64,000 bases of DNA from positions 62,001 through 126,000 of the forward strand of contig MVIG01000005.1 of the NCBI GenBank assembly GCA_002086835.1, read 5' to 3'. Shown piece after piece: positions 34,404-35,737 of this stretch (its first letter is position 1; each line of letters begins with the position of its first letter). The position numbers were made by a program, and so were the translations under genes. The DNA is from Mycolicibacterium porcinum. GTDB taxonomy: Bacteria > Actinomycetota > Actinomycetes > Mycobacteriales > Mycobacteriaceae. Under the pieces are notes generated by a model, which worked only from the letters and a program-made list of their open reading frames with translations, was not told the origin of the DNA and searched no databases.

Positions 34404-34883
34404 TCAGCGGTTGAGCATCCAGATCCGGGTGGACAACGCTGTCGCGAAACCACACCACAGCGGATACGGCGCCAGCACCGCGCCTGGGGCGCCCTGGGCC
34501 TGAACCGCGCGACGGGTCAGGTCGGCACTGCTGACGGTCAGCGCCGCGGCGGTGACGGCCGCGGCACCGAGTTGGCGCCGGGAGAAGAACACCCACGACC
34601 ACGCGGCGTTGACCGCCAGGTTGGCACCCAGCGCCGCCGTGTAGGCGCGGGCCTCGTCGTGGCGGCCGTCGGCACGCAGCCGGTCGATCGTACGGGCCGA
34701 GACCACCGCGATGCCGGCGTACAAAATCGGCCAGACGATCGGAAAGGCTTGCCGCGGAGGCTGAAACGACGGCTTGCGCAAGGACTCGTACCAGTTGGAC
34801 TGCGCGGGCCGGCTGGCCAGCCCGCCGACAAGCGCGGTGGTCAAAGCCGCAGTGGCCGTCTTGGCCAGGGTAATCGGTCGCAT
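34404..34883 (-). CDS. tspO: TspO/MBR-family tryptophan-rich sensory protein
   Basis: TspO proteins are five-helix membrane proteins that bind porphyrins and related compounds. The 159-aa product has the expected length and Trp-rich motifs: SNWYESLRKPSFQPP near helix 1, FPIVWPILYAGIAV, and NAAWSWVFFSRRQLG, plus PYPLWCGFATALS in the last helix. A perfect palindrome lies 28 bp upstream of its start and a second one further on in front of a divergent small HTH gene, suggesting shared control. Confidence 0.9.
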   Translation of the reverse strand: MRPITLAKTATAALTTALVGGLASRPAQSNWYESLRKPSFQPPRQAFPIVWPILYAGIAVVSARTIDRLRADGRHDEARAYTAALGANLAVNAAWSWVFFSRRQLGAAAVTAAALTVSSADLTRRAVQAQGAPGAVLAPYPLWCGFATALSTRIWMLNR

Positions 34884-34910
34884 GGGCGACTACATACCCG
34901 AATAGTCCCG

Positions 34911-34927
34911 CGTCAAAAAGTTTGACG
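34911..34927. promoter_or_regulatory. Palindromic operator upstream of tspO
   Basis: CGTCAAAAAGTTTGACG is a perfect 7+3+7 palindrome, 28 bp before the tspO start codon. The same arms CGTCAAA/TTTGACG recur at 35001-35023 in front of the divergent HTH gene. Confidence 0.75.
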
Positions 34928-35000
34928 ATGTTCCGCAGGATATGTCGCCCAGCGCGACGACCGGGCCGGACGCCCTCTCAGCCCATGGTGTGTCCGCAGG

Positions 35001-35023
35001 GATCGTCAAATACTTTGACGATC
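35001..35023. promoter_or_regulatory. Palindromic operator upstream of small HTH gene
   Basis: GATCGTCAAA and TTTGACGATC are perfect 10-base complements around TAC. The inner 17 bp match the palindrome near tspO in both arms. It is 43 bp before the HTH gene start. The two sites are 93 bp apart centre to centre. Confidence 0.78.
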
Positions 35024-35066
35024 GCCCACGCGGCGAGATGTCCCCACCGGTCGGCATACTCCGGAC

Positions 35067-35393
35067 ATGGGAGACAAGAGCGAGCCGTGGTGGGCGAACG
35101 ACCCTGAGCTGAAGGAATTCTTCCGACGCTCGCAAGAGCAACTGGAGCGGGAGATCGCCGCGCACGAACCCATTGCGTCCGACGACCCACCGGAGTCCGC
35201 TTGGGACCTGTCGATCGGGACACGGGTTCACGCGCTGGGGCTCGCCCGCGACGATCTCACCCGGGCCCAGGCACGCTACGAGCAGGCGATCCTCGCCGGT
35301 CGTCAGGCCGGTTTGTCGTGGGCACAGATCGGCAGAGTCCTCGGGGTGTCAAAGCAGAGGCTGCACAGCCGATTCCGCGGCCGCACCGGGTAG
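35067..35393 (+). CDS. Small helix-turn-helix protein, probable regulator of tspO
   Basis: I do not recognise a named family. The 108-aa product has a charged N-terminal half (ELKEFFRRSQEQLEREIAAHE), a central helix rich in Arg/Ala, and a C-terminal helix-turn-helix of the sigma-4/AsnC-like kind: GLSWAQIGRVLGVSKQRLHSRF. It is divergent from tspO and both genes are preceded by the same palindrome, so autoregulation and control of tspO is a reasonable inference. Its 3' end nearly touches the convergent ppnP. Confidence 0.8.
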   Translation: MGDKSEPWWANDPELKEFFRRSQEQLEREIAAHEPIASDDPPESAWDLSIGTRVHALGLARDDLTRAQARYEQAILAGRQAGLSWAQIGRVLGVSKQRLHSRFRGRTG

Positions 35394-35394
35394 C

Positions 35395-35676
35395 TCAGCG
35401 GTACTCGCACAGGTAGGCCGTCTCGGTCTCGACGCGCACCTGGAACTTGCTGTCGGCGGGCACGGTGAATTGCGTTCCGGCCGCGAATGTTTCCCACTCC
35501 TCGGTACCGGGCAGCTTGACCGTCAACCCACCGGAGACCACCTGCATGATCTCGAGCTGGGAGGTGCCGAACTCGTACTCGCCGACGGCCATGACGCCCA
35601 CGGTCGCATTGCCCTCCGGCGTCGTGAAACCGATCGAGGCGACGTCGCCACCGAAGTACTCGTTGACCTTGAACAA
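35395..35676 (-). CDS. ppnP: Pyrimidine/purine nucleoside phosphorylase PpnP
   Basis: PpnP (formerly DUF1255) is a small cupin that cleaves nucleosides with phosphate. The 93-aa product has the full family length and pattern: [13 protein letters not shown] near the start, [39 protein letters not shown], and a C-terminal YLCEY. It stands alone between a convergent HTH gene and the COG0523 gene upstream. Confidence 0.92.
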
Positions 35677-35737
35677 TGCGGCTCCTTGAAGTCGGGTGAG
35701 CGGTCAGGATACCGGGGCGAACACCCGCCGCACCCGG

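Follow-up and report, generated by a model that had tools for sequence, protein, structure and literature searches.

What do two palindromes with identical arms in the spacer between tspO and a small helix-turn-helix (HTH) gene of Mycolicibacterium porcinum control, and which protein recognizes them? We addressed this question in a 64-kb stretch of DNA (64,000 nucleotides, hereafter the window), in the 6.96-Mb genome from which it comes and in other genomes of the same genus.

Twin palindromes in the spacer

The initial annotation described twin palindromes with identical arms, CGTCAAA and TTTGACG, the second extending to 10-base perfect arms, and both descriptions were borne out (P1 and P2, Table 1). 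The palindromes are spaced 93 bp apart, between tspO on the minus strand and a 108-aa HTH gene on the plus strand. The core of P2 (35004-35020) has the form CGTCAAA-N3-TTTGACG and lies 46 bp before the HTH start codon. When up to two mismatches were allowed, P1 and P2 were the only two matches to this form in the window, compared with a mean of 0.10 matches in shuffled windows, none of 100 shuffles reaching two. Genome-wide, five exact copies and 11 copies with at most one mismatch were found (reversed control, 0), one of the 11 (L007) being inside a predicted coding gene. With three mismatches allowed, specificity was largely gone, at 336 matches versus 159 in the control among the matches listed.

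Table 1 Features of the tspO-HTH region, with positions counted from the first base of the window.
Feature	Position	Strand	Basis and remarks
tspO, 159 aa	34404-34883	-	PF03073, E 5.5e-35; possible clade-specific target of P1
TATGTA, probable -10 box of tspO	34891-34896	-	Predicted; 7 bases before the start codon, 14 from the TTGACG of P1
Palindrome P1, CGTCAAAAAGTTTGACG (CGTCAAA-AAG-TTTGACG)	34911-34927	none	Forms the left end of the repeat; precedes the tspO start codon by 27 bp
Operator-repeat unit, about 110 bp (P1, interior, P2)	34911-35020	+	Alignments; covariance model R1, E 2.5e-23, this copy itself being in the model
GATATGTCG, degenerate copy of the second recurrent motif of the unit	34939-34947	none	Alignments
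Palindrome P2, GATCGTCAAATACTTTGACGATC (GATCGTCAAA-TAC-TTTGACGATC)	35001-35023	none	Closes the repeat unit on the right
CATACT, probable -10 box of the HTH gene	35055-35060	+	Predicted; start codon 6 bases later
HTH open reading frame, 108 aa	35067-35393	+	ORF list; ClpC2/RelI-related HTH
			

A relative of ClpC2 and RelI

The HTH gene ends at 35393, beside the end of the convergent ppnp gene at 35395. With a dN/dS of about 0.1 to 0.15 against four relatives, it appears to be a genuine gene kept by purifying selection; homologues differ mostly at silent sites (for example, dS 0.47 and dN 0.06 relative to M. peregrinum, L161). Homologues were present in 38 of 248 same-genus genomes, with others in further genomes. 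In one of them (L033 in G111) an in-frame stop falls within the recognition helix, and the exact upstream palindrome is retained. The protein consists of a PWW motif, a helix at residues 13-32, a long helix at 43-80 and the HTH at 85-92 and 96-103 (predicted fold: mean pLDDT 83.5, pTM 0.49). Searches of Pfam and NCBIfam returned weak general HTH or sigma matches, all below cut-offs, PHROGs returned HTH proteins (best E 2.5e-6), and a PDB fold search with the model gave none at E ≤ 0.001, its best, weak rows including sigma region-4 domains. A defence role and a plasmid origin were rejected, since PADLOC and the plasmid collection searched, respectively, gave no match.

The initial annotation placed the protein in no recognised family, but comparisons at the level of profiles related it to a known group. 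The family profile matched RelI of M. tuberculosis (Rv2664, RelS-RelI, PDB 9sdc) with an E value of 6.8e-11 over the long helix and the HTH, and the single sequence did so with 0.00075; the profile matched a ClpC2 chain (8ada) weakly (E 0.012). The genome's own ClpC2, identified by its matches to Rv2667/ClpC2 chains and its Clp_N domain, aligned with the HTH family in hhalign at a probability of 95% (E 2.1e-8, 34 columns). In a single BLASTP comparison, 12 of 25 residues were identical between the HTH protein and the N-terminal HTH of this ClpC2 (E 1e-6), and the same ClpC2 matched RelI weakly (E 2.2e-4).

Nor is the site without a described counterpart, as had been supposed: a similar operator, CGTCAAC-n5-GTTGACG, is published for ClpC2. 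According to that study, ClpC2 represses its own gene through this operator, with binding seen in a gel shift, the operator is often doubled and the clpC2 transcript is probably leaderless (PMC10030653). The authors of the RelI paper assign RelI to a small HTH family of actinomycetes that partly resembles ClpC2, and they report no evidence of DNA binding by RelI and no likely inverted repeats upstream of RelSI (PMC13284704). Among the literature matches listed, from a scope that leaves most subscription journals outside, only the work on ClpC2 and RelI was relevant to this palindrome or HTH family. The exact pair of ClpC2 operators was found in all nine genomes tested, this one included, and the operator directly precedes a clpC2-like start in the three loci that we read, in two of which the simple gene caller found the gene. 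At L338:1501-1550, the genome's own clpC2 is preceded by two exact CGTCAACn5GTTGACG operators.

The HTH protein and ClpC2 are alike in their related HTH, in the outer half-site CGTCA/TGACG common to their sites and, by the description of ClpC2 in PMC10030653, in an operator upstream of the own gene that is often doubled and in a probable leaderless transcript. They differ in their sites, which span 17 bp with A at position 7 at the HTH gene and 19 bp with n5 spacing and an inner C for ClpC2. The HTH protein has an N-terminal PWW motif, unlike ClpC2, and no Clp_N (cyclomarin-binding) domain among its Pfam matches to E 0.1, whereas the genome's own ClpC2 has one. The operators of the HTH gene, again unlike those of ClpC2, are set in repeat units with a period of about 92 bp and with related units elsewhere. 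The likeness to RelI is one of sequence; in the window the HTH gene is flanked by tspO and ppnp, with no toxin gene (neighbours of homologues were taken from ORF lists only).

The palindrome follows the HTH gene

We compared 37 homologue loci, comprising 30 of the 41 places from the 248-genome search (best first) and seven of the 13 from a second search; six places, at E 6.9e-10 or worse, were left out. A CGTCA-N6..9-TGACG site lay within 400 bp upstream of the HTH match in 30 of the 37, and the upstream bases (15,294) held 55 such sites versus one in the 93,657 other bases. Among the seven loci without a site of this pattern, L035 and L036 have near-misses, L054 lies near the locus end and L050-L053 have none. 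At least one site was found upstream in 17 of 18 named mycobacterial loci, a set that overlaps the 37, the exception being L170. Of the six homologues that come next in similarity, five (L028, L029, L030, L032 and L033) carry the exact CGTCAAA-N3-TTTGACG a short distance before the HTH gene; the sixth, L031, with R at residue 101, has CGTCATCAAACTATGACG, a CGTCAT variant. The comparison supports the palindrome as the cognate site of this HTH protein family. The expectation that it would recur across mycobacteria both upstream of the HTH family and upstream of tspO thus held for the former and not, in general, for the latter. At L042 and L048 a single open reading frame contains the palindrome and a KPWW stretch twice, copied together as a unit, and the operator is therefore translated.

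The exact palindrome was sought in 396 same-genus genomes, versus the 248 and 18 (overlapping sets) in which HTH status was determined, and it occurred in 24 among the matches listed. Twelve of these genomes carry an HTH homologue of at least 51% identity (G000, G087, G111, G133, G236, G269, G312, G331, G359, G368, G380 and G385), nine have a single copy inside an unrelated predicted coding gene, and three lack a close HTH gene but have non-coding copies (G020, two of three copies; G330, three of four; G404, one of one), G404 having a weak HTH relative at 37% identity. Non-coding copies were found in 15 of the 396 genomes, among the matches listed, 12 of them with a close HTH homologue. Two genomes, G141 and G119, have an HTH homologue of more than 50% identity but no exact palindrome among the matches listed, and residue 101 is R in both (L031 and L034). 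Pattern counts are inflated by a coding coincidence: CGTCAAAATCTTTGACG also provides the codons for NVKIFDG in one conserved protein (L023, L024, L245, L246, L250 and L256), and this is what the copy amounts to in five of the nine single-copy genomes. Coding coincidences also occur among the copies of HTH-bearing genomes (L283 in G312 and L291 in G331).

Site type varies with residue 101 in the recognition helix (96-103 of the model). Where this residue is S or N (LH[SN]R), 19 of 19 sites are of the 17-bp CAA type; where it is R, 30 of 31 sites are 18 bp long and, likewise, 30 of 31 have C at position 7 of the left half. Five further sites belong to loci with an unparsed helix, one of them L033 with its stop codon, and L050-L052, with S at residue 101, lack a CAA-type site. 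The coupling may stem from one evolutionary change in the tree.

P1 and P2 as the ends of a repeat unit

Alignments indicate that P1 and P2 are the two ends of one repeat unit, the second recurrent motif of which reads GACATGTCG in several relatives. In M. peregrinum, four palindromes spaced 91-93 bp apart precede the HTH gene as tandem units. Alignable units are present at the HTH gene in G000, G359, G380, G312 (two, one at a paralogue), G331 and G368 (three), and elsewhere at a DUF1707 gene (G000, G359 and two in G368), at a uvrD-type helicase gene (G000 and G330) and at L279 in G380; their number ranges from one to two at the DUF1707 locus and from one to three at the HTH gene. The second HTH paralogue of G312 (L284/L162), some 6 kb away from the main one, has an unrecognisable C-terminal HTH and its own palindrome pair.

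Sixteen units were aligned, 15 of which entered the model alignment, the DUF1707 unit of G000 being left out for its long insert. In the forward direction, unit interiors beat shuffles in 18 comparisons (z 2.5 to 6.2). Some reverse-complement interior comparisons, chiefly of the uvrD units, also attain z values of up to 5.0, and these units, for which the reverse complement scored equal or better in some comparisons, are the least certain in orientation and homology. The 15-unit covariance model found four places at E < 1e-5 in this genome: the HTH and uvrD units, which were in the model, the DUF1707 unit and C81:109273. The best E value was 0.076 or worse in 11 comparison genomes, and 0.002 and 0.04 in G020 and G021, which are without the HTH gene. 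None of the 16 predicted pairs in the aligned units had changes on both sides, and an Rfam search of 34500-35700 gave no match.

Dispersed copies often lie near gene 3' ends

Outside the HTH arrays, 32 of 45 non-coding sites in set A and 18 of 25 in set B lie at most 100 bp from a predicted gene 3' end, a bias that is uncalibrated since the loci were chosen for holding a site and no null model was applied; L283, within the NVKIFDG codons, was nevertheless counted as non-coding, and without it set A stands at 31 of 44. By context, the 71 rows of set A comprise 29 convergent, 24 tandem, 12 divergent, 4 coding and 2 undecided, and the 34 rows of set B 16 tandem, 7 coding, 6 convergent and 5 divergent; some HTH-array sites count as convergent or tandem in these tallies because the simple gene caller misses the HTH gene in some loci. 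At some dispersed copies the pairing continues outward into a longer hairpin, by up to 12 bases. Three species retain a palindrome on the 3' side of a DUF6319 gene (L010:5493, L274:2041 and L278:1958), most of the surrounding spacer being not alignable; its outer arm bases change on both sides with pairing kept, a pattern that fits either protein binding or a terminator-like hairpin. CGTCATC-type palindromes are also present at L144:2527, L123:2532 and L121:2495: two lie 24 and 26 bp after tRNA-Leu genes, the one at L144 being followed by TTTT, and one is inside a long inverted repeat, 19 bp after a gene. Three CGTCAT-type palindromes with 75-bp spacing follow a gene in G189 (L148:2350-2500).

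The DUF1707 copy is present in G000, G359 and G368, and the DUF1707 loci of five other genomes (L343, L345, L349, L350 and L351) have no site within two mismatches. Extra sequence of about 930-990 bp lies between the two genes of this locus in 10 of 13 genomes; at L345:2346-3116, the relatives' extra ORF (256 aa, DUF559/REase_MTES_1575) occupies the place where G000, G359 and G368 have the repeat. In G020, 116 bp of unrelated sequence are found where the cassette would be. Because of this replacement in G020 and the extra sequence at the DUF1707 locus, no insertion boundary, clean empty site or target duplication was readable at either.

Two further ideas were set aside. Replication-terminus sites were provisionally dropped on the scattered coordinates of the matches listed, and a dispersed repeat with no link to the HTH protein was abandoned on reading the homologue loci, where the palindrome is upstream of HTH genes.

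tspO is a local neighbour of the palindrome

A sigma-70 consensus scan of 34850-35120 found no promoter-like match, including at CATACT and TATGTA. GCATACT recurs before the HTH gene in many relatives, and the TATGTA box before tspO is also found in relatives and in G021, which is without the palindrome there. The HTH transcript is probably leaderless, because the start codon follows so closely on CATACT; relative to its predicted start, P2 is at about -63 to -47, which is not the classical place of a repressor. The position of the TATGTA box just before the tspO start puts P1 over the probable -35 region of tspO, with a short spacer of 14.

P1 is found 26-28 bp before tspO only in the M. peregrinum-type clade (also in G359, G380, G331 and G368/M. 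peregrinum), so local co-regulation of tspO by P1 is possible in this clade. The M. brisbanense-type clade has the HTH gene at the tspO 3' end and convergent with tspO, with the palindrome on the far side of the HTH gene and not upstream of tspO. The tspO loci most similar in DNA among the genomes compared are those of G020 and G021, which have no HTH match in the genome and no palindrome at tspO. In G312 (M. frederiksbergense; L162), tspO was matched only for residues 45-94 and looks degraded, and the array and HTH gene persist. More distant HTH genes adjoin other genes and have the same kind of site. The TspO switch suggested in the initial annotation was not supported by these comparisons as a general role, and the link between palindrome and tspO looks like a local matter of position.

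A probable autorepressor and its alternatives

Our combined findings are best explained by a stand-alone ClpC2/RelI-type autorepressor with repeated operators, an explanation that, taken whole, we consider probable. The 108-aa protein would be a stand-alone relative of the ClpC2/RelI HTH proteins that binds CGTCAAA-N3-TTTGACG as a dimer and represses its own gene, as ClpC2 does via a similar site. P1 and P2 would form the ends of an operator-repeat unit that stands in tandem at the HTH gene in some species, and the HTH protein may also occupy the related units at other genomic places, which often closely follow genes. The position of the HTH gene between tspO and ppnp in this clade puts P1 over the tspO -35 region, and co-repression of tspO may on that account occur as a by-product local to the M. 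peregrinum-type clade; this is the weakest step of the explanation and a tentative one, which we would not yet favour over its opposite.

It is quite unlikely that the HTH protein instead senses porphyrin or redox state and controls the divergent tspO and itself through P1 and P2, with TspO control as the main purpose. The distance of P1 from the tspO start in the M. peregrinum-type clade would suit such a switch, as would the adjacency of tspO and the HTH gene in the M. brisbanense-type clade too. However, the site in the latter clade is not upstream of tspO, distant HTH genes with the same kind of site are beside other genes, the G312 array persists while tspO looks degraded, and tspO of G020 and G021 has no site. 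Since the palindrome goes with the HTH gene and not with tspO, we rejected a TspO/porphyrin switch as the main role. That the palindrome is bound by ClpC2 or another regulator and not by the adjacent HTH protein appears very unlikely: ClpC2 is encoded in this genome and its operator has a similar half-site (PMC10030653), but its sites differ in spacing and inner base, its exact operator pair is present in nine of nine genomes, two of which (G020 and G021) have no HTH match, and the non-coding palindrome, among the matches listed, is confined to the 15 genomes in which a close HTH homologue accompanies it 12 times.

The notion that the palindromes are RNA hairpins (terminators), and look like operators only in appearance, is highly improbable. 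Longer hairpins do lie 3' of genes at some dispersed copies, outer arms change on both sides at the DUF6319 locus, and the L144 hairpin, 24 bp after tRNA-Leu, is followed by TTTT, but the sites recur upstream of the HTH gene, 34850-35120 holds no terminator-like site, and hairpins were rejected on the lack of two-sided pair changes in the unit and of an Rfam match. More weight attaches to a REP- or MIRU-like interspersed repeat, in which the palindromes would have spread as a repeat and the HTH protein would be a by-product or a repeat binder, not a regulator, although we consider this, too, unlikely. Sequence-related units at several loci speak for it, as do the nearness of dispersed sites to gene 3' ends (in loci selected for a site), the variable number of units and the presence of the DUF1707 copy in three genomes but not at the loci of five others. 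Against it, this genome has only four places at E < 1e-5, the operator accompanies the HTH gene even among members that differ in site sequence, and neither a transposase domain nor a clean empty site or target duplication was seen. In REP/REPIN systems with RAYTs, short palindromes in spacers flank the gene of their cognate protein, as here; unlike RAYTs, which are Y1/HUH transposases, the HTH protein has no transposase domain in Pfam or NCBIfam, and the copies are few. The MIRU repeats of mycobacteria are tandem and interspersed spacer units of similar size, a likeness in size and arrangement, and they are not known to have a binding protein.

A bolder extension of the autorepressor explanation, to which we give limited credence, is that the operator array of a ClpC2/RelI-type self-repressor has turned into an interspersed repeat, with protein and palindromes diversifying together between mycobacterial lineages and the dispersed bound copies serving to mark transcription boundaries between convergent genes or to titrate the repressor as decoys.

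These findings correct the idea of a general TspO switch. They would also widen the ClpC2 operator, described for a single gene, into a type of site used by a family of small stand-alone HTH proteins. The readable recognition rule, which relates residue 101 to the inner base and the spacing of the site, makes protein-DNA specificity in this group directly testable, and the repeat units would give mycobacteria a dispersed repeat that probably has its own cognate DNA-binding protein.
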